Source: Muribaculaceae bacterium (GTDB taxonomy: Bacteria > Bacteroidota > Bacteroidia > Bacteroidales > Muribaculaceae). From it: a stretch of 47,534 nt of DNA. Where the stretch lies: contig JAMPAK010000001.1 of NCBI GenBank assembly GCA_023667285.1, positions 916,690-964,223 on the forward strand, written 5' to 3'. Of the stretch, positions 19,166 to 32,692 are shown piece after piece (position 1 is the first letter of the stretch; each line of letters begins with the position of its first letter). A program made the position numbers and the translations under genes. The notes under the pieces are model-generated. The model was not told the origin of the DNA, did no database searches, and was given only the letters and a program-made list of their open reading frames with translations.

Positions 19166-20044
19166 TTATTCAGTAATCTCGGAGGGCAAAGTGGGCATTG
19201 CACCCTGCTGGGTGCATACATAGGCCGATGTCTGTACAGCCTTGTGGTGAGCCTCGGTGACAGATTTACCCTTTAGGATGCTGGCAATGAACGCAGCCGT
19301 GAAAGAGTCGCCCGCGCCGACAGTGTCAGCCACCTCCACTGTGGGGGTGGGGAGGAACGACACCTCTCCCGGAGTGAAAACATAACTGCCGTTTATGCCG
19401 CAGGTGAGGATGAGCATGCGGAGGTTATATTTTCCCAGCAGAATCCAGCACTTGTCCTGCAGGTCGATGCCGGGATAACCGAACATGCGGCTGATGGTGA
19501 CGAGTTCCTCATCGTTGATCTTGAGAATGTTGCAGCGCTTCATGGAGTTGCAGACGGTCTCCGGGGAATAGAAGCCCTGGCGGAGGTTGATGTCGAAGAC
19601 AATCAGCGGGTCGTTCTCTGCGGGTATCGTGTCGAGGAATCGGTTGATGGTCTCGCGTGAGACAACGTTGCGCTGGGCGAGAGAGCCGAAGCAGACAGCC
19701 TTGGTGCGCTTGGCCAGAGCCTCGACCGTAGGAGTGAAAGGGATATTGTCCCATGCCACATTCTCCTTGATGTCATACTGCGGGATGCCGGCCTGGTCAA
19801 TCTCCACCTGAACAGTGCCGGTGGGGTAGGGGACGGTGTCGATGTGATGCTTCACACCTTTCTCATTGAAATTCTGAAGCAGTTCCATGCCCAGAGGGTC
19901 ATCGCCGATGGCGCTGACAGCACAGCTGTCCAGACCGAACTGCGAGACGTGATATGCAAAGTTGGCGGGTGCGCCACCTATTTTCTTTCCTTCAGGGAGA
20001 ACGTCCCACAGGGCCTCTCCCATTCCTATTACGATTTCTTTCAT
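19166..20044 (-). CDS. Fructokinase, PfkB (ribokinase) family
   Basis: A 292-aa cytosolic sugar kinase. PfkB features: an N-terminal GGAPANFAYH substrate segment (23-32) and the C-terminal signature DTVGAGDSF (240-248) with catalytic base Asp246. It is the last gene of a leftward GH32-MFS-kinase unit, 13 bp after the carrier gene. From this setting, its substrate is inferred to be fructose delivered by the carrier, giving fructose 6-phosphate, as in the B. thetaiotaomicron fructan locus. PfkB sequences alone do not fix the sugar. Confidence 0.92.
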   Translation of the reverse strand: MKEIVIGMGEALWDVLPEGKKIGGAPANFAYHVSQFGLDSCAVSAIGDDPLGMELLQNFNEKGVKHHIDTVPYPTGTVQVEIDQAGIPQYDIKENVAWDNIPFTPTVEALAKRTKAVCFGSLAQRNVVSRETINRFLDTIPAENDPLIVFDINLRQGFYSPETVCNSMKRCNILKINDEELVTISRMFGYPGIDLQDKCWILLGKYNLRMLILTCGINGSYVFTPGEVSFLPTPTVEVADTVGAGDSFTAAFIASILKGKSVTEAHHKAVQTSAYVCTQQGAMPTLPSEITE

Positions 20045-20057
20045 GGCTATATGATTT

Positions 20058-21236
20058 CTATTTGATTCTGAGTGTATAGTAAGCGAGATAAATCACCCCG
20101 ATAGTCATCACGGCGACTGCGCCGATCTGTCCGATGGCGTCTGCGGCATAGCCCATGGCCAGGGGGAACACTGTTCCGCCGAAAAGTCCCATGATCATGA
20201 GGCCGGACACCTCGTTCTTCTCATCGGGCGATGAGATGAGAGCCTGCGAGAAGACCACAGAGAAGATGTTCGAGTTGCCGAATCCGACGAGGCCGATGCC
20301 GATGTAGAGAGCCGTCAGCGTGTCGCACACGAAAAGAATCACCATTGCCGCGAGCATCATTGCCACACTGAGGCCAAAGAAGAGACGCGGTGAGACCGAC
20401 CTGAGGATAAACGCTCCTAGAAAACATCCGGCTGTGCGGAAGATGAAATAGACGCTGGTGGCAAACCCGGCCTCCTCGAGGGGGAGTGACAGGCGCTCCA
20501 TGATAATCTTGGGTGCAGTGGTGTTTGTGCCGACATCAATACCCACATGACACATGATGCCGAGGAAACACAGCAGGATGAACGGGCGTCCAAGCAGTTT
20601 GATGCACTCCTTGATTCCTGATGCCTTGTCCTGGCGCTCCTCCTCGATGGGAGTGGCGGCAAGCATGGTGATGGAGATGAACGACACGGCGGCATAGATG
20701 ACGAAGAGTATTCTCCAGTCAAGCCCGAAAGTGGGCATGACGGTCGTGGCACCCCACGCTGCAAGGATAGGAGCGAGGAACGAGGCTATAGCCTTCACAA
20801 ACTGCCCGAAGGTAAGGGTCGAGGCCAGTTTGTCGCCGCTGATCAGGTTAGTGACAAGTGGATTGAGAGATGTCTGCATCACAGCGTTGCCTATGCCGAG
20901 CAGTGAGAACGACGCGAGCATTGTCATGTAGCTGTCATCGAAAATAGGCAGTATGAGAGAGGCTGCAGTGATGAAGAGGCTGACGAGCACAGTCTTCTTG
21001 CGGCCTATCCTGTTCATGAGCATCCCGGTGGGGACTGAGAATATCAGGAACCAAAAGAATACGAGCGACGGGAAAAGTCCGGCCTGTGAGTCGCTCAGAC
21101 CCAGGTCTTTCTGTACATAGTTTGAAGCAATGCCGACAAGGTCAACGAAGCCCATGGCAAAGAAGCACAGCATTACGGGGATTATCTGCATCAGCAGCCC
21201 TTTCTTGCCATATTGAAGTGTCTGTGAAGTTTCCAT
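20058..21236 (-). CDS. MFS sugar permease, probable fructose carrier
   Basis: A 392-aa inner-membrane protein of about 12 helices from the major facilitator superfamily, similar in layout to the sugar:H+ symporters of Bacteroidetes PULs. The loop 2-3 signature reads GMLMNRIGRKK. The start is set at the ATG at 21236 (METSQTLQYGKK); a TTG two codons upstream is less likely. Placed between a GH32 gene (31-37 bp upstream) and a fructokinase gene (13 bp downstream), it most likely imports the fructose released in the periplasm. The substrate is an inference from context. Confidence 0.9.
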   Translation of the reverse strand: METSQTLQYGKKGLLMQIIPVMLCFFAMGFVDLVGIASNYVQKDLGLSDSQAGLFPSLVFFWFLIFSVPTGMLMNRIGRKKTVLVSLFITAASLILPIFDDSYMTMLASFSLLGIGNAVMQTSLNPLVTNLISGDKLASTLTFGQFVKAIASFLAPILAAWGATTVMPTFGLDWRILFVIYAAVSFISITMLAATPIEEERQDKASGIKECIKLLGRPFILLCFLGIMCHVGIDVGTNTTAPKIIMERLSLPLEEAGFATSVYFIFRTAGCFLGAFILRSVSPRLFFGLSVAMMLAAMVILFVCDTLTALYIGIGLVGFGNSNIFSVVFSQALISSPDEKNEVSGLMIMGLFGGTVFPLAMGYAADAIGQIGAVAVMTIGVIYLAYYTLRIK

Positions 21237-21273
21237 TGTCAAGGATACGGGTTAAGGTTGAGAGATATCGATT

Positions 21274-23115
21274 TTAGAGTTCAACGGTCGGAGTCAGGGC
21301 ATAGACCTTCAGATCCTTTATCTTGGCCTGGGAGCCGGTGGTTGAGAGAGTGAGGGCCGTGTAAGGAGCGGTGGGGAACACCAGATTTGTCATTACACTC
21401 TTGCCTCCGTCAGCAAAGACCTCGATGCTTGAGCGGTCCACGAATATACGTAGGCTCATCTTGTCGCCATCTGTATATGTCGGAGCCGTTGTGACAGCCG
21501 GAAAGTCCTGGCTGAAGTCTGAGAGGCCGCTGTTGCGGCGGTCAAAAGAGAGGGTATCATTTGCAGGTGTGTATGTCAACACTGCTCTTTCATCCTTGTC
21601 GTTGCTGAGAGTCACGGAGACAGTCTCAGCCTTTCCAGGCTCGATGTCAAGAAGAATCTCACAGATGCCGGAGTTAGCTGTGGGGAGAGCGAAATTTTTC
21701 CCCTTGCCTGCCACTGAGACAGACTCTTTGTTGATAGTGAGTTGACCGCGGAGAGCATCAATCTCAGGCGAGGGGACTGTGGCAGCATAGATCTGTCCGT
21801 CAGGAGCGGTGAAGAGGCTTATCTCACGAGGCAGAGTGTTGGCGCTTCTGAACTGATGGGTGGGAACCTCAGCGGCATACTGCCAGTTGCTCATCCATCC
21901 CATCAGGGTGCGACGGCTCTCAGGTGCGTCGCTCCAGCTCACCACGGCATAGTTGTCCTTGCCATAGTCAAGCCACTTTGTGGCCACCTTGCCCGAAGCA
22001 TCCGTGTCGGCCTTGAATGTCTTGCCGTCAAAGTCGCCCACGAAATACTGTATGCCGCTACCTCCGAACGGGCCGCCCGGGTTGATATTGCACAGAAGCA
22101 CCCATTTTGTCTTGTCTGTGCCATCGACGGTGAGTTCAAAGAGGTCAGGACACTCCCACACACCCTCCTGTGCACCCAGTCCTTTGCCAAACGCGCTCTG
22201 CAGAGTCCACTCCTTCATGTCGGGCGACGTGAATATGAGCATCTCGCGGTCCAGAGCGTGGGCCAGCACGAGTGTCCACTCCTTAGTCGTCGGATTCCAG
22301 AACATGTTCGGGTCGCGCGCCTCGCTCTCGAGGGTGAGGATGGGGTTGCCGGGATAGATATTGAACGTATTGCCGTTGTCGTTGCTCCATGCCAGACTCT
22401 GAATCTGACTCTCAGCGGCCGACGTATAGAGAGTCACCACAGCGTCCTCGCCAAACCCGGCGCTGTTTTCATGATCGATGGCCGAGCTGCCGCTGAAGAC
22501 AGTTCCCAGTCCGTTAGGCTCGATGGCTGCCTGATGATGGTCCCAGTGAACAAGGTCGTTAGAAGAGGAATGACCCCAAGTCATGTTCTGCCACTTTGAG
22601 CCATAGGGATTCCATTGGTAATATAGGTGCCATGTGCCATCCTTGTAGAACATCCCGTTTGGGTCGTTCATCCACCCGTAGAGAGGGGTGTGATGGAAGG
22701 CAGGACGATACTGTTCGCTGTTTGCCGTGTCAAACGTGTCTGCCAGCGACAGATTGCTCCAGCAGGCATCCTGCTTGGCCTCGCGCACGGAGGTGCGGTC
22801 GTGGGTGGTGACGATGTTCAGCACCACATCGTGTCCCTTCCACGGCGAGAGATCGAGCGGCATCTTATAGTCGATCTTCGACTTTGCCAGACGCACAAAT
22901 ATGGTCTTCTCAAGTCGGCCATCGACAACGATGTTGACCTTGGCATCATCATATGCCTCCTGCACTGGAAGCAACAGATAGCGGCCCTCCCCCTCAACTC
23001 GCACAAGGGTATTGTTTATCCCCAGGTGTTCCACTTTCACTCCGTCGGCGGCTGAGAGACCCAGGGCGAGCAAGAGCGCGGGGGCGGCAAGCAGGTTTTT
23101 AATCTTAAGTTTCAT
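21274..23115 (-). CDS. Periplasmic GH32 fructosidase (levanase/inulinase type)
   Basis: A 613-aa GH32 enzyme. The signal peptide (about 1-23, LLALGLSAA-DG) lacks a lipobox, so the protein is predicted periplasmic. Residues about 25-125 form the extra N-terminal beta domain common in Bacteroidetes GH32. The five-bladed propeller follows with an intact nucleophile motif WMNDPNG (148-154, Asp151), RDP (267-269) and the acid/base motif WECPD (Glu321), then a C-terminal beta-sandwich with FVDRSSIEVFADGG. It should cut terminal fructose from beta-fructans or sucrose-type oligosaccharides. First gene of the leftward unit, divergent from the sensor gene. Confidence 0.94.
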   Translation of the reverse strand: MKLKIKNLLAAPALLLALGLSAADGVKVEHLGINNTLVRVEGEGRYLLLPVQEAYDDAKVNIVVDGRLEKTIFVRLAKSKIDYKMPLDLSPWKGHDVVLNIVTTHDRTSVREAKQDACWSNLSLADTFDTANSEQYRPAFHHTPLYGWMNDPNGMFYKDGTWHLYYQWNPYGSKWQNMTWGHSSSNDLVHWDHHQAAIEPNGLGTVFSGSSAIDHENSAGFGEDAVVTLYTSAAESQIQSLAWSNDNGNTFNIYPGNPILTLESEARDPNMFWNPTTKEWTLVLAHALDREMLIFTSPDMKEWTLQSAFGKGLGAQEGVWECPDLFELTVDGTDKTKWVLLCNINPGGPFGGSGIQYFVGDFDGKTFKADTDASGKVATKWLDYGKDNYAVVSWSDAPESRRTLMGWMSNWQYAAEVPTHQFRSANTLPREISLFTAPDGQIYAATVPSPEIDALRGQLTINKESVSVAGKGKNFALPTANSGICEILLDIEPGKAETVSVTLSNDKDERAVLTYTPANDTLSFDRRNSGLSDFSQDFPAVTTAPTYTDGDKMSLRIFVDRSSIEVFADGGKSVMTNLVFPTAPYTALTLSTTGSQAKIKDLKVYALTPTVEL

Positions 23116-23180: not shown

Positions 23181-23188
23181 CAAATCTA
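23181..23188 (-). promoter_or_regulatory. -7 promoter element of the leftward GH32-MFS-kinase unit
   Basis: The minus strand reads TAGATTTG, matching TAnnTTTG. No TTTG is seen at -33, as expected for an activator-dependent promoter. The paired repeats at 23213-23245 begin 25 bp upstream of the box. Confidence 0.55.
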
Positions 23189-23212
23189 CCATTTTCCCCA
23201 ACGAAACGCTAC

Positions 23213-23245
23213 TAAAATTGGTGCAAAGGTGATTAAAAATGGTGC
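23213..23245 (+). promoter_or_regulatory. Candidate sensor-regulator operator: 21-bp phased direct repeat
   Basis: TAAAATTGGTGC (23213-23224) and TAAAAATGGTGC (23234-23245) are 11/12 identical and exactly 21 bp apart, two helical turns, which is the spacing of AraC-type half-sites. The pair lies between the divergent GH32 and sensor genes. A related pair with the same period lies upstream of susC (26100-26132). Confidence 0.6.
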
Positions 23246-23294
23246 ATCACGACATTTTTAATATTAAATGCTCTGTTATTCATAATTTTATGAT

Positions 23295-23302
23295 TAACTT
23301 TG
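23295..23302 (+). promoter_or_regulatory. -7 promoter element of the hybrid sensor gene
   Basis: TAACTTTG matches TAnnTTTG. The predicted transcription start near 23308 leaves a leader of about 32 nt before the ATG at 23340. Confidence 0.5.
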
Positions 23303-23339
23303 CCACAAAGGTCACAACAATGGGCCTTTATCCTGAAAA

Positions 23340-26069
23340 ATGAATCTATACCGATACACAGCCATAATGCTGGTGGCTTTGTCAGTGCTCCTTCTATCCT
23401 CCTGCCGTGAAGAAACTAAACTACGCATAGGTGTCTCTCAGTGCAGCAACGATGACTGGCGCACGAAGATGAATGACGAGATAAGACGCGAGATAATGTT
23501 CCACCCTGAGGCCGAGGTGGAGATCCGCTCTGCGGACGACAGCAACGAGAAGCAGATCTCAGACATACGTTATTTCATGGACAACGGTTTCGACATCATC
23601 ATAGCCGCAGCCAACGAGGCCGATGCCGTCACTCCGGTGATACGCGAGGCATATGAAAGTGGAATTCCCGTCATAGTCTTTGACCGCGACATTAACGGCG
23701 ACACCTATACATCCCGTCAGAGTGTAGACAATGCCGGAATAGGGCGCGAGGCTGCTGATTATGCCTACCATCTCACCGGTTCGGGCGGAAAAGTCATAGA
23801 GATATATGGCCGTCCCGGATCTACTCCCGCACGCGAGCGCCACAAAGGCTTCAATGCCCGGGCCTCTCTCCTCGGTCTTGAAGTCCTCGCCTCAGCCCAT
23901 GGAAACTGGAACTTCGAGGATGCCGCACGTGTCACAGACTCACTCCTTAATATATATAAGGATGTCGACCTCATATTTGCCCATAACGACCGCATGGCCA
24001 TAGCAGCCTCTGAGACAGCACGAAGCAGGGGCTTGGACCTTAAGGTGATAGGCATTGACGCCGCCCCTGAAATAGGCATAAAGGCCGTGGCTGACAGTGT
24101 GATAGACGCCACATTCTTTTATCCCACCGAGGGCCACCGCCTCATCCGCACAGCCCTCGCCATCCTGAACGGCTCTCCGTATGAGCGCGAGGTGAGACTG
24201 CCGATAGCCTCAGCCGTCGACAATACCAATGCAGACATACTCCTGCTTCAGAATGAATCGCTCAAGGAGGAGACCAATAAGATTCAGTTGCTCAAGATGC
24301 AGGTCGACGACTACTGGACCCGCCACTCAGCCCAGACGCTTCTCTTCTATGCCTCTGTGGCTATACTTGCGCTAGTGCTATGCGTCATGTTTATGATACT
24401 CAGGGCCTTCTGGCAGCGCAAGCGCCATCAGAAGGCACTCATGGAGCAGAACCGTCTCCTCGAGCAGCAGCGTGATACTGAGAAAGCCCTAAACCGCCAG
24501 CTCAACGAGGCCACGCAGTCCAAACTCATTTTCTTCACCAACGTCTCCCACGATCTACGCACACCCCTCACCCTCATAGCCGAACCGGTCGAGCAACTTG
24601 CTGATGCAGATAATCTCACCCCTCAGCAACACACCCTGATGAAGATTGCCAATAAAAATGTCAAGATTCTGCGTCGACTTATCAATCAGATACTTGACTT
24701 CCGAAAATATGAGAATGGCAAACTCGACCTCCACCTCACCGAGGTTGGTTTCGCAGGGATAGTGGCAGAGTGGGCCGAGTCATTCTACTCCATAGCGCGC
24801 CGCCGCGCCATAAAACTGGGTGTCGAAATCTCAATCCCCGAAGACTTCACCCTCGCCATCGATACTGAGAAAATCGAGCGCGTGTTCTTCAACCTCATGT
24901 CAAACGCCTTCAAATATACCCCAGACAACGGCCATATCAACTTCCGCTGCAGCCTAGAGGGGGAGACCCTCACATTGTCAGTTGAGGACACCGGCATGGG
25001 CATCCCCGCTGAGGAACTCGGCAACATCTTCGACCGCTTCTTCCAGGTCGACAAAATCCACTCGAATGGTTCAGGGATAGGACTGTCGCTCGCCAAGGCT
25101 TTTGTCGAGCTCCACGGCGGTGAGATAAGTGTCGAGAGTGAGCAGGGTCGAGGAAGCCGCTTCACTGTTACACTTCCCGTCAGACATGTGGCCACCCCCG
25201 CCCCCGAGACTCTCTCACGCGCAGTACCTGACAGCGACATAGAGACCGAACTGGCCGACATCGAGACCGAGCGAACCACCGACGGCGATGACAAACCACT
25301 CCTGCTTGTGATAGACGATAATGAGGATATCCGAAGCATGGTGTCCGAACTTCTGAGCGATGAATATCAGATCATCGAGGCCTCCAACGGTAAGGAGGGT
25401 GTGAGGAGAGCAGCCAAATATGTCCCTGACCTAATAATATGCGATGTGATGATGCCCGTGATGGACGGACTGGAATGCTGCCGCCTCATAAAGGAGGAGG
25501 TCTCCACTTCTCACATCCCCGTCCTGATGCTGACAGCATGCACAATGGACGAGCAGCGCATACAGGGCTATGAGAGCGGTGCCGACGGCTATCTTGCCAA
25601 GCCCTTCAATAGCCGCATGCTCAGGATGAGGTGCCATAACCTCATAGACAACCGCAAGCGCATCAAGGAACTGTGGAAAGCCCAGGGACACCCGGAGTTG
25701 AAACCGCTCACATCAAAGCCTTCTTCTACCGCCGATGTCGAGAGCGAATTCTATTCCCGGTTCCTCGAGATAGTCCGCTCTGAGATGGGCAATCCTGAAC
25801 TCAGCGTCGACTCCCTCGCATCAAAGATGGGACTGGGTCGCTCGCAGTTCTACCGCAAGATAAAAGCCCTGACAAATTTCTCGCCCGTCGAGCTCCTGCG
25901 CAATCTCCGCATCAAGCAGGCCCGCGAGCTTCTCACCACAACCGCCAAGAGCATCAGCGAGATAGCATATGAGGTGGGATTCTCGGCTCCGGCCTACTTC
26001 ACGAAATGCTACCGCGACATCTATGGCGAGACACCATCCGATGTGCGTGAGCGCCTGGGACACAAGTAA
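23340..26069 (+). CDS. Hybrid two-component system sensor/regulator of the fructan locus
   Basis: A 909-aa one-protein signalling system (HTCS). Order: N-terminal hydrophobic segment ending in LLSSC (Cys22, possible lipobox or uncleaved anchor); a periplasmic sugar-binding-protein domain of the LacI/ribose-binding type (about 28-310); a membrane helix (about 334-356); histidine kinase with phospho-acceptor His404 (VSHDLRTP) and an ATPase domain (DTGMGIP, GSGIGLS); a receiver domain with Asp702 (ICDVMMP); and a C-terminal AraC-type helix-turn-helix (about 805-905). This layout is that of B. thetaiotaomicron BT1754, which binds fructose directly. It probably activates susC and the divergent GH32 operon via the 21-bp phased repeats. 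Confidence 0.93.
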   Translation: MNLYRYTAIMLVALSVLLLSSCREETKLRIGVSQCSNDDWRTKMNDEIRREIMFHPEAEVEIRSADDSNEKQISDIRYFMDNGFDIIIAAANEADAVTPVIREAYESGIPVIVFDRDINGDTYTSRQSVDNAGIGREAADYAYHLTGSGGKVIEIYGRPGSTPARERHKGFNARASLLGLEVLASAHGNWNFEDAARVTDSLLNIYKDVDLIFAHNDRMAIAASETARSRGLDLKVIGIDAAPEIGIKAVADSVIDATFFYPTEGHRLIRTALAILNGSPYEREVRLPIASAVDNTNADILLLQNESLKEETNKIQLLKMQVDDYWTRHSAQTLLFYASVAILALVLCVMFMILRAFWQRKRHQKALMEQNRLLEQQRDTEKALNRQLNEATQSKLIFFTNVSHDLRTPLTLIAEPVEQLADADNLTPQQHTLMKIANKNVKILRRLINQILDFRKYENGKLDLHLTEVGFAGIVAEWAESFYSIARRRAIKLGVEISIPEDFTLAIDTEKIERVFFNLMSNAFKYTPDNGHINFRCSLEGETLTLSVEDTGMGIPAEELGNIFDRFFQVDKIHSNGSGIGLSLAKAFVELHGGEISVESEQGRGSRFTVTLPVRHVATPAPETLSRAVPDSDIETELADIETERTTDGDDKPLLLVIDDNEDIRSMVSELLSDEYQIIEASNGKEGVRRAAKYVPDLIICDVMMPVMDGLECCRLIKEEVSTSHIPVLMLTACTMDEQRIQGYESGADGYLAKPFNSRMLRMRCHNLIDNRKRIKELWKAQGHPELKPLTSKPSSTADVESEFYSRFLEIVRSEMGNPELSVDSLASKMGLGRSQFYRKIKALTNFSPVELLRNLRIKQARELLTTTAKSISEIAYEVGFSAPAYFTKCYRDIYGETPSDVRERLGHK

Positions 26070-26099
26070 AAATTCTGTCAGTCTGCCGCAGGCTGATAT

Positions 26100-26132
26100 T
26101 AAGAATCGTGCTTTTGATATAAAAAAACGTGC
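26100..26132 (+). promoter_or_regulatory. Candidate operator upstream of susC: 21-bp phased direct repeat
   Basis: TAAGAATCGTGC (26100-26111) and AAAAAAACGTGC (26121-26132) have a 21-bp period and resemble the pair at 23213-23245 (10/12 identity between the best members). The second copy overlaps a short palindrome CGTGC-GTT-GCACG (26128-26140), and TTTTGATAT occurs twice (26112-26120, 26143-26151). Confidence 0.55.
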
Positions 26133-26193
26133 GTTGCACGGATTTTGATATTCCTTGCAACCTGCGTGTTACACATAAGGGGCTCCCTGGCCC

Positions 26194-26201
26194 TAACTTT
26201 G
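26194..26201 (+). promoter_or_regulatory. -7 promoter element of the susC-susD operon
   Basis: TAACTTTG matches TAnnTTTG, with no TTTG at -33, in keeping with activator dependence. The start of transcription is predicted near 26207, which rules out the in-frame ATG at 26145 as the susC start. Confidence 0.55.
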
Positions 26202-26231: not shown

Positions 26232-29200
26232 ATGAAAAAATCAATCCTCGGTGCAGTCATGCTATTCTTCATAGCACTCACCGCACAAGCACGAGACATC
26301 ACGGTGCATGGGACAGTCCTCTCAGCCGCCGATGACGAACCGCTGATAGGCGCCAGCGTCATCCCCGACGGAAAAGGCACCACAGGAGTCGCCACTGACA
26401 TTGACGGTAACTTCACCCTCAACGTCCCCGAAGGATCAAGCCTTGCAATATCTTATGTGGGCTATAAGACAGAGACCGTCAAGGCCTCGACAGAACATAT
26501 GACAGTCCGCCTCTCAGAGGACACCGAGCTGCTCGATGAGGTTGTAGTGGTGGGCTATTCATCAGAGAAGAAATCCGACCTCACCGGCTCAGTCTCCGTG
26601 GTGAAGATGAAGGATGTGTCAGACACCCCCACGGGCAATGTCCTCCAGGCTCTTCAGGGACGTGTGGCAGGCATGAACATCACTACCGATGGTACCCCCG
26701 GCGGTCTGAGCACCGGCACATCTATCCGCGGTGCATCATCATTCCGCAGCGATGCCAATGGTCCCCTCTATGTTATAGATGGCGTGATGACACGCGAGAA
26801 TCCCGGCACAATCCTCAACAGCAACGATGTTGAGTCCATTCAGGTGCTGAAGGACGCAGCCTCCGCAGCCATCTATGGCGCCCAGGCCGCCAACGGTGTA
26901 ATCATTATCACCACCAAGCGCGCCAAAGAAGGTGAATGCCGTGTGACATTCGATGCCACTCTCACCCTGCAGACTTACAACAGTGGTCTCGACATGATGA
27001 ACGCCGATGAGTGGGGCCAGGTCTACTGGGCAGCTCACAAATATACATATGGCACCACACCCACATCCAACGAACTCTATGGCAACGGCGCCACTCCTCA
27101 GCTCCAGGGCTATACTAACCTCAACGGTGTGGCCGTCAACCCTCAGAACACCGACTGGGAGAAGGAGATTCACCGCACAGCACTCATGCAGACCTATAGC
27201 GTAGGTCTCTCAAAGGGCGCCTCGAACGGCTCCTCCTCAATGTCGCTCAGCTGGCTTGACCACGACGGTATCATAAAGGGTTCGGATTTCCAGAAGGCCA
27301 ATGCACGTTTCAGCTCAGACTACGGATTCCTCAACAACCGTCTGCGCGCCGGCGGCAACATGACACTCAACTGGTGGCGTCAGCACAATGCTCCCGGCGG
27401 CATCGAGGAGAATGCCATCAAGATGCACCCCGCCCGCACCGTCTACGACAGCGAGGGCAATTGGAACGACCAGGTCAACTTCGGTCTCAACGACACCCCA
27501 AACCTCATGAGACAGATTGAGGAGCAGAGCAAGAACAAGCATGAATACTGGCGTGTGTTCGGCAACGCATATCTCCAGGTAGAACCCATCAAGAACCTCA
27601 TCGTCAGAACCAATTTCGGTATCAACTACCACAACGGCAACGACAAGGAGTTCACACCTGCAAACCTCCGCGACCAGACCAACACTCTCTATCAGTACTC
27701 AAGCAAGACTGTCGACTGGGTGTGGACAAACACCGCTCAGTATAATGCCGACTTCGGCAAGAACGCCATCATGGCTCTCGTGGGCATCGAGGCCAAGCGC
27801 AACCACTTTGAGGATATGTATGGCCGCGGCAAGGGCCTCGAGATTGAGGATGAGAACTACCTCTATCTCGGCAACGTGACTTCAAATCAGGAAGTAGGCT
27901 CAAGCGCCTCAAACTATTCGATGTTCTCAGTGTTCGGCAAGTTCAACTACACATGGGACAACAAGTATCTCGCCTCGCTCACCATCCGCCGCGATGCATC
28001 CTCACGCCTCTCTAACGAGAAGAATTCCGACTGGTTCCCCTCATTCTCAGCAGGATGGCGCATCTCACAGGAAAATTTCATGGAGGACACCCGCACATGG
28101 CTCACAGACCTTAAGATCCGCGGTGCCTACGGTGTGAACGGTAACGACATCATTGCCAACGACGCCTTCTATGCAAAATACAACATGGATCTCAACAAGG
28201 CCGGATATGCCATTGCCGGCGGCGACAAACTCTACTCCGGAGCCTTCCGTTCACGTAGCACCAACCCGGACCTGACATGGGAGAAGACCTATCAGACAAA
28301 CATCGGCTTTGACGCTGCCTTCCTCAACAACCGTCTCTCAGCCTCGTTCGACTACTTCTATAAGAAAACCAAGGACATGCTCGTGGAGAAACCCTATATC
28401 GCCACAATCGGCGAGGGCGGCTACTGCTGGTATAACGGTGGTGAGATGGTCAACAAGGGTGTCGAGATTGTCCTCAACTGGCGCCAGGCAGTCAACAAGG
28501 ATTTCAGCTATGAAGTGGGTCTCAACATCACAGCCATGAAGAACAAGGTGACAGACCTCATGGAGGATATCTACTACACCTATGGAGGCGGCAACGGACG
28601 AGACCTCAGCATTGTGGGTCAGAGCCTCGGCTCATGGATGGGCTATAAGACCGATGGTGTGTTCCGCACACAGGAAGAAGTTGACGCCTATAAGGCACAG
28701 TACAAGATAGGTTTCGGCAACCCCGCCGTGGGACGTGTGCGCTATGTCGACACAAATGGCGACGGTGAGATCAATGACCGCGACCGCACATGGCTCGGAT
28801 GCGACCTCCCCAAGGCTCAGTTCGGTCTCAATCTCGCTGCAAACTGGAAGGGTTTCGATGCAAGCCTCTTCTTCAACAGCATCATCCGCGACGCCTGGAA
28901 CAACTCCAAGTACTACACCGACTTCTTCCCTCTCTGGACCGGCAACCACGGCACACAGCTCCTCGGTGCTGCTAAGGCTTATGAGAACTATCTCACCACC
29001 GGTGTCTATAACTCTGATGTCCCAGCTCCCTCAATCGACAACTCAAACAGTGAGGGCGACGGCTCTGAATACTACATCGAGGATGGCTCTTTCCTGAGAC
29101 TCAAGACCCTCTCCGTGGGCTACACTCTCCCCAAGAACATACAAGACAAGCTCTCGCTTAAGAACGCCCGCGTCTACTTCCAGGCTCAGAACCTGTTCAC

Positions 29201-29294
29201 AATCACAAAATACAGCGGCGCTGACCCCGAGGGTCTCGGCTATCCCTATGCCCTTCCCCGTCAGTACACTTTCGGTCTCCAATTCGGTTTCTAA
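26232..29294 (+). CDS. SusC-family TonB-linked outer membrane transporter
   Basis: About 1020 aa from the ATG at 26232, where a clear signal peptide begins (MKKSILGAVMLFFIALTAQA). A carboxypeptidase-regulatory-like domain follows (about 23-95, VHGTVLSAADDEPLIGASV), then the TonB box/plug (EVVVVGYSSEKKSDLTGSV; plug to about 230) and a 22-strand beta barrel ending in an aromatic residue (FGLQFGF). It imports oligosaccharides across the outer membrane with TonB energy, capped by SusD. By context the substrate is a fructan. The ORF could extend upstream to 26145, but that segment spans the promoter. susD begins 21 bp downstream. Confidence 0.96.
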   Translation: MKKSILGAVMLFFIALTAQARDITVHGTVLSAADDEPLIGASVIPDGKGTTGVATDIDGNFTLNVPEGSSLAISYVGYKTETVKASTEHMTVRLSEDTELLDEVVVVGYSSEKKSDLTGSVSVVKMKDVSDTPTGNVLQALQGRVAGMNITTDGTPGGLSTGTSIRGASSFRSDANGPLYVIDGVMTRENPGTILNSNDVESIQVLKDAASAAIYGAQAANGVIIITTKRAKEGECRVTFDATLTLQTYNSGLDMMNADEWGQVYWAAHKYTYGTTPTSNELYGNGATPQLQGYTNLNGVAVNPQNTDWEKEIHRTALMQTYSVGLSKGASNGSSSMSLSWLDHDGIIKGSDFQKANARFSSDYGFLNNRLRAGGNMTLNWWRQHNAPGGIEENAIKMHPARTVYDSEGNWNDQVNFGLNDTPNLMRQIEEQSKNKHEYWRVFGNAYLQVEPIKNLIVRTNFGINYHNGNDKEFTPANLRDQTNTLYQYSSKTVDWVWTNTAQYNADFGKNAIMALVGIEAKRNHFEDMYGRGKGLEIEDENYLYLGNVTSNQEVGSSASNYSMFSVFGKFNYTWDNKYLASLTIRRDASSRLSNEKNSDWFPSFSAGWRISQENFMEDTRTWLTDLKIRGAYGVNGNDIIANDAFYAKYNMDLNKAGYAIAGGDKLYSGAFRSRSTNPDLTWEKTYQTNIGFDAAFLNNRLSASFDYFYKKTKDMLVEKPYIATIGEGGYCWYNGGEMVNKGVEIVLNWRQAVNKDFSYEVGLNITAMKNKVTDLMEDIYYTYGGGNGRDLSIVGQSLGSWMGYKTDGVFRTQEEVDAYKAQYKIGFGNPAVGRVRYVDTNGDGEINDRDRTWLGCDLPKAQFGLNLAANWKGFDASLFFNSIIRDAWNNSKYYTDFFPLWTGNHGTQLLGAAKAYENYLTTGVYNSDVPAPSIDNSNSEGDGSEYYIEDGSFLRLKTLSVGYTLPKNIQDKLSLKNARVYFQAQNLFTITKYSGADPEGLGYPYALPRQYTFGLQFGF

Positions 29295-29315: not shown

Positions 29316-31094
29316 ATGAAACTCAATAAAATCCTCAGCATATTCCTGGCTTCGGCAGCCATAGCATCCTGTAGCGATGACTTCCTTGAGAATCCCCCTC
29401 AAGGTCCCCTCTCAGAGGCAAACATGAACGACCCTCAGGCCGTAGACCTCCTGGTCAACAGCGCATATGCCACCTTCGGGTGTCGCTATGCCGACTCAAA
29501 CGATCCTCATCTCTACCCCCTCACCAACTGGAGCTATGGCGAGGTCAGGGCCGACAATGCCTACAAGGGTGGCGGCGGTGAGACCGACCTCTGGGAGGTG
29601 CACGACATGGAGACAGCCAAGATTCAGCCAAACAACGGCTTCCTCGACGGAAAATGGTTCAACGTCTACTGCGGCATCTCGCGCTGCAACTCAGCCATTC
29701 GCGCTATCATGAAGACAGATGAGAACAAAATTGCCAATAAGACTGTCCGTATCGCCGAGATGAAGGTTATCCGAGACCACTGGTATTTTGAACTCGTGCG
29801 CCTCTTCAACCGCATCCCCTACATGGACATTGACCTTCCGGAGAACGACTACACCTCTGTCCCCAACAATGAGTTCACACGCGAGCAGCACCTCGACCGC
29901 ATCGCCAACGACCTCCTTGAGGCTGCCGGAGATCTCCCTGAGACTCAGCCTGAGATAGGACGCATCAACAAGCGCGCCGCCCTTGCATATGCCGCCAAGG
30001 TGAAACTCTATCAGGCATATGAGGAGGATCCCGAGACAAACGCTGTCACAAACATCAACAAGACTCTCCTCAAGGAGGTTGTCGAGATAATCAACGGTAT
30101 CAGTGGCTACGAACTGCTCAAAGATTTCCAGCATCTCGACCTCCTCGAGTATGAGAACGGACCTGAGTCAGTGCTTACAGTGCAGTTCTCCAAGAACGAT
30201 GGCACCGCCGACGGCGGACGTGTCAACTGGAGCATGCTCCTCAACTCAATGACAGGCGAGGGTTGTCCCTGGGCCGGCGATGGTTTCTTCCTCCCCTCGC
30301 AGGACCTCATCAATGCCTATCAGACAGATGCCGATGGTCTCCCACTCTTCGACTATCAGAGCCTTCCTGATTACGGTGTCGTGAAATTCGACGAGGCTGA
30401 CAACTCTAAGTACACACTCGACAATGTCAGCGGCAATGTCGATCCCCGTCTCGACTTCGTGACAGGCCGTCCCACCATCCGCTATAAGACATACACAGAG
30501 AAACCCTGTGGCCTCTGGGTTAGAAACAAGGACGTCTACGGCTACAACAACACCAAGCGCTTCTGGCTCTCTCCCGAGTCTGAGGACGCCAACCACGGTT
30601 GGCCCTGGGGTGCTTCAGGCCTGAACTGGCAGATTATCCGCTATGCTGATCTTCTCCTCTACAAAGCCGAGGCTCTCATAGAGATAGGCGACGGCGCAAG
30701 CCTTGAGGAAGCCCGCGGTCTCATCAACCGCATCCGTGAGCGTGCACGTCAGAGCGCATACGTCAAAGACTTCAACGACCCCACAAAGGATGCCGCCAAC
30801 TATAAGATTGGCCTCTATCCCCAGGCCGGTTGGACACAGGATTATGCCCGCAAGGCCCTGCGCACTGAGATGCGGCTTGAGAAGGCCATGGAGGGTGAGC
30901 GTTTCTACGACCTCGTCCGTTGGGGCATAGCAAAGGAGACTATGAACAACTACTTTGCAGCCGAGCAGGACAACCGCATCTACTATCAGAACGCATCGTT
31001 TGAGACCGGTGAGGAGTATTTCCCTGTACCCGTTGCGCAATACAACTTCTCAGGGGGCATATATGTCCAGAATCCCGGATACCCCTCATTCTAA
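29316..31094 (+). CDS. SusD/RagB-family outer-membrane glycan-binding lipoprotein
   Basis: A 592-aa surface lipoprotein, lipobox IASC with Cys19. It has the usual SusD layout: an N-terminal SusD-like region with helical TPR-type repeats (about 20-250) and a C-terminal RagB/SusD region with LRTEMRLEKAMEGERFYDLVRWG. It sits as a lid on the SusC barrel and binds the substrate before import. Cotranscribed with susC (21-bp gap). No SusE-like gene follows; instead a strong hairpin (31152-31192) and then a GH32 gene. Confidence 0.96.
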   Translation: MKLNKILSIFLASAAIASCSDDFLENPPQGPLSEANMNDPQAVDLLVNSAYATFGCRYADSNDPHLYPLTNWSYGEVRADNAYKGGGGETDLWEVHDMETAKIQPNNGFLDGKWFNVYCGISRCNSAIRAIMKTDENKIANKTVRIAEMKVIRDHWYFELVRLFNRIPYMDIDLPENDYTSVPNNEFTREQHLDRIANDLLEAAGDLPETQPEIGRINKRAALAYAAKVKLYQAYEEDPETNAVTNINKTLLKEVVEIINGISGYELLKDFQHLDLLEYENGPESVLTVQFSKNDGTADGGRVNWSMLLNSMTGEGCPWAGDGFFLPSQDLINAYQTDADGLPLFDYQSLPDYGVVKFDEADNSKYTLDNVSGNVDPRLDFVTGRPTIRYKTYTEKPCGLWVRNKDVYGYNNTKRFWLSPESEDANHGWPWGASGLNWQIIRYADLLLYKAEALIEIGDGASLEEARGLINRIRERARQSAYVKDFNDPTKDAANYKIGLYPQAGWTQDYARKALRTEMRLEKAMEGERFYDLVRWGIAKETMNNYFAAEQDNRIYYQNASFETGEEYFPVPVAQYNFSGGIYVQNPGYPSF

Positions 31095-31151: not shown

Positions 31152-31199
31152 GGGGAGGGGACTTGATGGGCCTATGCCCATATCCCCTCCCCACTTTTT
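31152..31199 (+). terminator. Strong hairpin with T tract between susD and the second GH32 gene
   Basis: GGGGAGGGGA (31152-31161) pairs with TCCCCTCCCC (31183-31192), with an inner stem TGGGC/GCCCA (31167-31171/31176-31180), followed by ACTTTTTAT. The GH32 ATG (31211) lies only 12 nt past the T run. It may terminate most susCD transcripts and let a fraction through, or protect the susCD 3' end. Confidence 0.8.
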
Positions 31200-31210
31200 A
31201 TCTGCATGAT

Positions 31211-32692
31211 ATGAGAAAAATATTTTTTATGTTCCTTATGGCGATTAGCCTGGGTGCGATGGCCGAGGGCCTGTATAAGGAACAGTGGCGTCCGCAATAT
31301 CACTTCACACCTGCCCATAGATGGATCGGCGACCCCTGTGGCCTGGTCTATCACAACGGGATGTTCCATGCCTACAGCTGGGGATGCGCTGAGTCGCCTG
31401 ACCTTCTGCACTGGACTGAAATCAACCGAGAATCTTTGGTCGATGTCCCTGCAGGGATTGGAAAATTCACAGGCAGTGTCGCTGTCGACACAGCCGGCAC
31501 AGCCGGATATGGAAGAGGTGCATATGTCGCTGCCTTCACATCATTTGATGAGGCTACCAAGAAACAGTCACAGTCAATTGCCCACAGCAGAGACGGTGGA
31601 CGGACATTCAACTATTACGACCTCAATCCCGTCATCGACATATGGAGCACTGAGTTCAGAGACCCTACAGTGCTGTTGGATGAGAGGACGGAGCGCTGGA
31701 TTATGCTTGTTGCAAAGGCTCTTGAGAAAAAGGTCGCTTTTTATGGCTCCTCAGACCTTAAACATTGGGAGTGGCTGAGTGAGTTTGGTCCAGCTGGAGA
31801 CAGCGAGCGTTCATGGGAATGTCCTGACATGTTCCAACTTCCCGTTGTGGGAAAAGAAGGTGAAAAGAAATGGGTGCTTGTGGTCTCTGTAAACTGGGCG
31901 CGTGAGCAATACTTTGTCGGCGATTTTGACGGCACCAGATTCACCCCTGACACCTCTGACTCTGAACCGCTCTACATAGATTTTGGCCTTGACTACTATG
32001 CCTCGCGTACGTTCCGCGACTATGACGGGACCCTCCCCAATGTCTATTCCATTGGTTGGGTCTCGACATGGGACTATGCACAGCATGTACCCACAACCTA
32101 TGGAAAAGGTGTTTGGTCATTGCCGAGGGAACTGTCTTTGGTAGAGACCCCTGATGGGCTGCGCCTCAGGCAGACTCCGGCCACTGCTTTGAGACAGCTG
32201 AGAGGCAAGCCGGTCAAGTATGCCAAAACTCTCAAACCCGGTGTCACTCCATTGCCGGAGATTAGCGGGATGGACAATCAATATGAATTGGAAGTAGAAT
32301 TTCCCACCGACGAGGCAAACACATTCGGCCTGAACCTTTGTGCAGGCGATGGCATGAAGGTGACCCTCAGTTACGACACCACATCAGGCATACTCACTCT
32401 CGATCGCACTAACTCGACTGCCGTCAAGATGCCAAAGTTCGAGCGCATCGCCTTCACAAGAGTAGTCCCAGAGAATGACAGCCTGAGGCTGAACATATTT
32501 GTGGATAAATCTGTCGTGGAAATATATACCGGTGATGGTGAATGTGTCATGACTGCTCTCACCTTCCCAACTCCCGGAGCCGTAGGAACCGAGTTGTTCG
32601 CCCTCCGTGCGGGATGTCATCCTCGTCTCACAGCATGGCCAATGGCTTCTGTATGGGATGAAGTGACATCTGTTGCTCACAGTGTGAAATGA
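31211..32692 (+). CDS. Divergent GH32 family glycoside hydrolase, periplasmic
   Basis: A 493-aa GH32 enzyme from the ATG at 31211 (MRKIFFMFLMAISLGAMA, a signal peptide without a lipobox). The ORF is open 48 nt further upstream, but that stretch is the terminator hairpin. The catalytic triad is present: Asp41 in WIGDPCG (38-44), RDP (150-152) and Glu203 in WECPD. The usual WMNDPNG is altered in both residues that flank Asp-Pro (N to G, N to C), and the following aromatic motif is AYSWG rather than YQWNP, so sugar recognition probably differs. It lacks the N-terminal extra domain of the other GH32. It probably completes fructan breakdown in the periplasm. Confidence 0.9.
   Translation: MRKIFFMFLMAISLGAMAEGLYKEQWRPQYHFTPAHRWIGDPCGLVYHNGMFHAYSWGCAESPDLLHWTEINRESLVDVPAGIGKFTGSVAVDTAGTAGYGRGAYVAAFTSFDEATKKQSQSIAHSRDGGRTFNYYDLNPVIDIWSTEFRDPTVLLDERTERWIMLVAKALEKKVAFYGSSDLKHWEWLSEFGPAGDSERSWECPDMFQLPVVGKEGEKKWVLVVSVNWAREQYFVGDFDGTRFTPDTSDSEPLYIDFGLDYYASRTFRDYDGTLPNVYSIGWVSTWDYAQHVPTTYGKGVWSLPRELSLVETPDGLRLRQTPATALRQLRGKPVKYAKTLKPGVTPLPEISGMDNQYELEVEFPTDEANTFGLNLCAGDGMKVTLSYDTTSGILTLDRTNSTAVKMPKFERIAFTRVVPENDSLRLNIFVDKSVVEIYTGDGECVMTALTFPTPGAVGTELFALRAGCHPRLTAWPMASVWDEVTSVAHSVK

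Follow-up and report, generated by a model that had tools for sequence, protein, structure and literature searches.

Two 75-bp elements bracket the gene of a hybrid two-component system (HTCS) in a fructan locus of a Muribaculaceae bacterium (assembly GCA_023667285.1, contig JAMPAK010000001.1, positions 916,690 to 964,223; this whole stretch of 47,534 nucleotides is referred to as the window). Operator U (23210-23284) lies in the gap between the glycoside hydrolase gene GH32a and the HTCS gene, and operator D (26097-26171) lies in the gap between the HTCS gene and susC. Their conservation in orthologous loci, co-occurrence with the HTCS, confinement to these two gaps and sharing with Bacteroides suggest that they are very probably the operators through which the HTCS governs the GH32-MFS-kinase and susCD units. 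We hold with good confidence the fuller account, in which both elements are HTCS operators and activate GH32a-MFS-kinase and susCD through the promoter-proximal pair of half-sites. A sequence-only reading of the window had singled out four 12-mers, at 23213, 23234, 26100 and 26121, as two pairs with an exact 21-bp period and had taken them for the recognition site of the intervening HTCS. The positions and the period are as it described and the assignment is probably right, but each site is composed of four half-sites, not two.

The half-site, as read from orthologous gaps, spans 16 bp (TATNAAAAANNNTGCA), and the full operator is a mirrored array of four (-> -> <- <-) with spacers of 5, 1, and 5 bp. 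Each 12-mer corresponds to positions 4-15 of a half-site, either 1 or 2; each pair is followed by 1 bp and then by an inverted pair with the identical 21-bp period. In U, half-site 1 (23210-23225, forward strand) holds the 23213 12-mer and is the proximal half for the GH32a promoter, half-site 2 (23231-23246, forward) holds the 23234 12-mer, and the reverse-strand half-sites 3 (23248-23263) and 4 (23269-23284) complete the mirror, the last overlapping the -33 region of the HTCS promoter. In D, half-sites 1 (26097-26112, forward) and 2 (26118-26133, forward) hold the 26100 and 26121 12-mers and are distal to susC, and the reverse-strand half-sites 3 (26135-26150) and 4 (26156-26171) form its promoter-proximal pair. 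The 12-mer alone occurs at chance level in the window (73 matches at <=3 mismatches vs 74.3 expected), and the weight of the case thus falls on the arrangement. Terminator-like stems at the dyad of D (26128-26140) showed no excess, with 3 in the region vs 2.5 in shuffles.

Orthologous gaps were collected through an HTCS search of 118 relatives. At E<=1e-100 it matched 57 genomes, of which many carry HTCSs of other types. Forty loci were fetched around orthologue-like matches (L032-L071). L067_D was left out, as were loci in which GH32a or susC does not adjoin the HTCS in the orientation seen in the window. This left 29 U and 26 D gaps; together with the two window gaps they make 57, comprising 30 GH32a/HTCS (U) and 27 HTCS/susC (D) gaps. 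The motif is conserved across these gaps. Operator columns average 0.76-0.78 bits vs 0.09-0.42 in the flanks, the operator figure being somewhat inflated because the aligned segments were chosen by score. Period 21 stands out among periods 15-30 in the fructan D gaps (z 8.5; next 3.1 at 26). A profile built from sequence only (R1, 75 positions) was derived from 25 of the 28 gaps with a quad score >=44, omitting the two window gaps and L048, which is close to L045. Both operators in the window are supported by R1 and by the mirror-gap test described below.

Three tests bear on the mirrored pair. In the offset test, a profile from the direct pairs alone was applied, leaving one locus out at a time, at offsets of -80 to +120 on both strands. 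Besides the pair itself, mean scores were positive solely for inverted sites at +38 and +59 (6.1 and 7.0 bits in U; 6.3 and 4.1 in D); the +38 peak marks half-site 3 of U. The next best means were -1.4 (U) and -0.3 (D), and the background was -16 (U) and -17 (D) with a standard deviation of 4.6. In a promoter-anchored cross test, halves were placed by their distance from the -7 box and scored by the other operator's profile from other loci; the proximal half was used in choosing that distance, the other three were not. The fractions above 4 bits for distal half 1, distal half 2, inner half 3, and proximal half 4 were.80,.73,.97, and 1.00 in U and.70,.78,.89, and.74 in D, relative to 1.7-1.9% of all positions. 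Finally, the mirror-gap test used a profile from proximal half-sites only, again from the other operator and other loci, and tried 49 gaps (-8 to 40 bp). The best mirrored pair fell at a 1-bp gap in 29/30 U and 23/27 D gaps, and at 4 bp in a single D gap (1/27).

The operators stand at a fixed distance from the promoters that they would activate. The promoter consensus is TAnnTTTG at -7 and TTTG at -33. TAnnTTTG boxes are present at the promoters, and TTTG is absent from the -33 region of all 81 promoters scored (0/30 GH32a, 0/27 susC, 0/24 HTCS), which bears out the earlier observation of a -7 box but no good -33; the shorter TTG occurs there in 6/30, 2/27, and 0/24, respectively. In the window, the -7 box of the GH32a-MFS-PfkB operon (TAGATTTG, 23181-23188, reverse strand) is 21 bp from U half-site 1, and that of susC (TAACTTTG, 26194-26201, forward) is 22 bp from D half-site 4. 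Among the loci, a leftward GH32a box lies 21-22 bp from half-site 1 in 30/30, and a rightward susC box lies 20-22 bp from half-site 4 in 27/27. An antisense promoter to the left of D was ruled out, as a leftward -7 box occurs within 60 bp in 0/27 gaps. The box distances and the missing TTTG identify the proximal pair as the activating position, that is, half-sites 1-2 for GH32a and half-sites 3-4 for susC. The proposal that the two 12-mer pairs serve the GH32-MFS-kinase and susCD units is therefore correct in part: the 23213/23234 pair is in the activating position for GH32a, but the 26100/26121 pair points away from susC and is distal to it, and the activating position is occupied by a previously unreported mirror pair (26135-26171), 22 bp from the -7 box. 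In Class II AraC-type activator sites, the half-sites stand in tandem at a 21-bp distance and the proximal half-site falls at the -35/-33 element. A site at fixed distance in place of that element is likewise found at 57/57 GH32a and susC promoters; here, unlike in Class II sites, an inverted tandem pair directly adjoins the first pair.

The second pair could, in principle, be idle. According to this alternative, which we consider rather improbable, only the promoter-proximal direct pair works and the mirror pair is a by-product with no cooperative role, either a site for the divergent gene in U that was copied to D or a weak decoy. It would account for the one pair found at the four Bacteroides GH32 promoters examined (L072, L073, L075, L077), for proximal pairs that on average outscore distal ones, and for L054_D, which retains the proximal pair and has lost the distal one. 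D, however, has no leftward box within 60 bp, yet its distal pair is kept at a 1-bp gap in 23/27 loci and at 0 bp in 3/27, and the flanking columns are less conserved than the operator, with the caveat on score choice given above.

A second alternative assigns the mirror pair of U to the HTCS gene itself, so that the divergent promoters are driven symmetrically under positive autoregulation; the sequence-only reading had raised autoregulation as a possibility. U half-sites 3-4 do face the HTCS promoter. The HTCS -7 box (TAACTTTG, 23295-23302, forward), however, is 10 bp from half-site 4 in the window and 8-11 bp away in 24/30 loci (not found there in 6/30), and a box at 14-30 bp occurs in 0/30, vs 20-22 bp at all 57 GH32a and susC promoters. 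At 8-11 bp, a bound protein would cover the -33 region of the HTCS promoter. In addition, passages of PMC3404733 report that the BT1754 promoter is not fructose-responsive in B. thetaiotaomicron, a comparison that is indirect because Bacteroides shows no such operator before the HTCS among the six best pairs of the loci. The activating form of autoregulation is thus unlikely.

Within the 2.19-Mb assembly (93.8% complete), profile R1, from which the window is excluded, ranks U and D first and second and finds them alone, the next locus having an E value of 0.23. U is matched at E 3.0e-12 on the forward and 1.2e-7 on the reverse strand, and D at 7.9e-11 on the forward (model positions 1-68) and 4.1e-8 on the reverse, and a match on both strands is what a mirror image would give. 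In the genus, R1 has a match at E<=0.01 in 18/27 genomes, of which G002 (a partial match) and G011 match weakly. In the family survey, an operator was counted at E<=0.001, with stricter filters for large sets, and an HTCS hit at E<=1e-170. Among 198 family genomes, 84 carry the operator and 89 an HTCS hit; 75 have both, 14 the HTCS only, 9 the operator only, and 100 neither. The operator thus occurs in 75/89 genomes with an HTCS hit vs 9/109 without, although the genomes are related and a Fisher value is only a guide. It is present in 75/78 genomes with a close HTCS orthologue, the split of HTCS hits into 78 close and 11 other having been made after the operator list was seen. At a looser cut-off, several distant genomes give weak matches, such as G050 (E 0.07), where the gap between susC and the HTCS holds a degenerate version of the four-site array (L239).

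The operator can also persist beside a different transporter. In 9/27 D loci (L032, L040, L041, L043, L045, L046, L048, L054, L055), susC is of a different type, with 37-39% identity to that of the window, which looks like a swap of the import cassette beside the same sensor. Four of these gaps retain the operator (39.7-52.4 bits), three carry it in the 0-bp form, and two score low (L054, 17.7; L055, 27.7). Separately, both operators of L050 (genome G014) are degenerate (22.9 and 21.1 bits) in a locus with an HTCS of 62% identity and a different MFS transporter (26% identity). Seven HTCS hits contain one in-frame stop each, either real or an assembly error (L014 in G017, G170, G239, G240, G246, G247, and G252); the operator is still found in five of these genomes and not in G240 or G247.

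That the element serves a different sugar regulator, for example the Crp-like BT4338 or a SusR-type protein, is highly improbable. Carbohydrate genes can have several regulators, and BT4338 acts on carbohydrate genes of Bacteroides, according to passages of PMC11501099 and PMC3878776. With up to 3 mismatches allowed, however, the BT4338 palindrome (TATGTTNTANAACATA) finds no match in the window, and a site of that kind was rejected; in the text of PMC3878776, SusR repeats are spaced by 67 or 77 bp, and in the family the element goes with the HTCS. Least credible of all is chance in AT-rich gaps, or gap ancestry without selection: the 12-mer alone is not enriched and the orthologues are related, but this reading is already contradicted by the whole-genome search with the window excluded from the profile (E 3e-12 and 8e-11) and by the cross-operator tests, in which U and D are different gaps and one's profile finds the operator in the other. 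The D gaps that retain the operator, or its 0-bp form, beside a different susC also count against it.

Several observations weigh against the operator account as we present it. The half-site profile was started from our own consensus, read off the gaps, and then refined. The half-site closest to the susC promoter in the window, half-site 4 of D, is weak, at 4.1 bits. Distal pairs are outscored by proximal pairs, with 7.1/6.8 vs 13.9/14.1 bits in U and 5.8/7.0 vs 8.1/9.3 in D. The centre of the mirror is 0 bp rather than 1 bp in 3/27 D gaps (L045, L046, L048), and L040_U and L054_D have no good mirror pair, their best placement falling elsewhere with a bad score. In the family survey, nine genomes have an operator and no HTCS hit, and 14/89 HTCS genomes lack an operator at the threshold used; the latter comprise ten hits of 43-46% identity, a partial hit (G240), and G014, G147, and G247. 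Lastly, R1 applied to ten Bacteroides and Prevotella genomes gives weak best matches (E 5.5e-7 to 0.1) among many at chance level.

The presumed binder is encoded between the two operators. The HTCS (23340-26069, forward strand) combines a Peripla_BP_4 sensor, HisKA, HATPase_c, Response_reg, and an AraC-type HTH_18 domain. Its sensor domain matches chain 2x7x (E 9.7e-75), which we take to be the BT1754 fructose sensor, and its receiver and DNA-binding domain match 12aw (E 1.6e-61). The protein shares the layout of the BT1754 family (a periplasmic sugar-binding-type sensor, HisKA, HATPase, receiver, and AraC helix-turn-helix), as well as its neighbourhood, in which GH32, a sugar transporter, a sugar kinase, and susCD adjoin. 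We infer fructose as its ligand. To the left, on the reverse strand, GH32a (21274-23115; DUF4980 and GH32) is the first gene ahead of an annotated MFS transporter (20058-21242) and PfkB-family kinase (19166-20044); to the right, on the forward strand, are annotated susC (26235-29294), susD (29316-31094), and GH32b (31163-32692).

Beyond the architecture, conservation, promoter phasing, genome-wide uniqueness, and co-occurrence that are observed, the mechanism that we infer, including its binder, dimer arrangement, cooperativity, and direction of regulation, would run as follows. Each 16-bp half-site would be the footprint of one AraC-type domain, and the 21-bp direct pair the minimal site. Fructose would bind the periplasmic domain, and the phosphorylated HTCS would occupy the pair with its TAT end 20-22 bp before the -7 box. 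Placed at the missing -33 element, it would recruit RNA polymerase and switch on GH32a-MFS-kinase and susCD. The mirrored second pair, across the 1-bp dyad, most likely holds a second HTCS dimer that would steady the first. At the HTCS promoter, operator DNA would be covered rather than activated, leaving the sensor constitutive or weakly self-repressed. We tentatively suggest a further step, with rather less than even confidence: the HTCS may act as a paired complex, with two membrane-anchored dimers face to face on the 75-bp operator and its 1-bp centre, and both operators, 2.9 kb apart and bracketing the sensor gene, may be held together at the membrane. If true, such a complex would make induction of import and catabolism all-or-none while the sensor gene stays uninduced.

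In the passages considered, what is published on HTCS operators comprises predicted direct repeats (PMC3878776), regions from chromatin immunoprecipitation (ChIP; PMC3404733), and assays of DNA binding by individual regulators (PMC11253607). In its main text, Ravcheev 2013 (PMC3878776) gives predicted motifs for 16 HTCSs as direct repeats averaging 21 bp apart, with example sites of 12, 14, and 16 bp upstream of genes adjoining an HTCS, and names an HTCS_Fru regulon that includes an inner-membrane transporter and a kinase. Like those operators, the window has direct repeats 21 bp apart, beside an HTCS and conserved in orthologous loci. Unlike those motifs, of one direct repeat each, it has two repeats that form a 75-bp mirror with a 1-bp centre, 20-22 bp from the -7 box. 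The main text of PMC3878776 contains neither "inverted" nor "symmetr", and its three uses of "palindrom" concern the Crp-like motif and the workflow; no mirrored HTCS operator was found described in the titles and abstract openings of the literature searched, the HTCS_Fru logo and supplements lying outside this comparison. The fructan operator is a variant of the 21-bp direct-repeat HTCS operator, a repeat that is itself already known, and its mirrored doubling is apparently new within the literature searched. Around other HTCSs, 40 fetched loci yielded 14 usable susC promoters (4 under a stricter selection). In these 14, a sample too small for a verdict on other HTCSs, the period-21 signal is weak (z 3.2) and a mirrored layout is not clearly seen: the 1-bp gap scores 40.6 vs 38.8 (standard deviation 0.7, only 4 shuffles), and other gaps differ equally.

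Similarly, the locus resembles that of B. thetaiotaomicron BT1754 (PUL22) in its 2x7x-like sensor, GH32, MFS, kinase, and susCD, and in a half-site pair common to related Bacteroides, the comparison having been made with these relatives rather than with B. thetaiotaomicron DNA itself. With the 2x7x sensor chain as query, 23 loci were obtained, 18 of them from Bacteroides or Prevotella (L072-L089). The best-scoring pair of the stretch lies upstream of GH32a in 7/7 Bacteroides loci covering that DNA (L072, L073, L075, L077, L086, L087, L088), with the -7 box 21 bp from the pair in the four in which it was counted (L072, L073, L075, L077). Unlike the window, Bacteroides places the HTCS after the kinase with no operator before it among the six best pairs of the loci, and has one pair at the GH32 operon and two or three half-sites at susC. 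Eleven R1 hit loci were read in these two genera. Three half-sites with the same geometry lie upstream of susC in L170-L172. Upstream of susC, L173 has just the pair, and L169 (Prevotella, the same site as in L089) has four positions, the inverted halves being weak. L174 is the B. luti site, where two pairs, facing susC and GH32, lie 22 bp apart (L088); in L189 (B. faecis, E 0.005), noted for its gene and not its rank, a pair lies upstream of a GH32 gene on another contig. L175, L176, L180, and L181 look like chance.

According to passages of PMC9845299 and PMC11501099, BT1754 drives its fructan locus with fructose, and the unlinked levanase BT3082 is co-regulated. The Bacteroides pairs, including the off-locus GH32 of L189, are consistent with that published regulon and BT3082. 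In the part of PMC3404733 that describes it, ChIP of BT1754 gives its strongest enrichment over the 3' region of the BT1754 gene. The motif leaves this peak unexplained: in seven Bacteroides and Prevotella loci, the first 300 bases downstream of the HTCS hold none of the six best pairs. If the region was called against a chimera strain without BT1754, as the same part of PMC3404733 suggests, it could reflect the deletion and not binding.

Glycan use in gut Bacteroidetes is in large part under HTCS control. With its rigid mirrored layout and single promoter distance, the operator yields base-level predictions of which half-sites are critical, which promoters would lose induction, and that the sensor would show no self-induction. 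Further leads from the profile are related sites at BT1754-type loci of Bacteroides and additional regulon members, such as a GH32 gene elsewhere in one relative. This gene, in genome G015 (contig C6, L228:3200-4846), is 56% identical to GH32b and lies on a contig other than that of the fructan locus; one direct half-site pair is upstream in the activating orientation, at roughly 22 bp from TAATTTTT, an incomplete match to the -7 box. It is a possible further target of the HTCS. In G011, a genome 57% complete, an operator-like stretch (L118:1440-1580, E 0.002) with no evident fructan genes in 2.8 kb is possibly the scar of a lost fructan locus. Finally, in G002 (contig C15, L230, around 2130-2210), a genome without an HTCS hit of the fructan-sensor type, a 21-bp tandem holds several sequences resembling TGCAACATTTAT; it may be the operator of a different HTCS.

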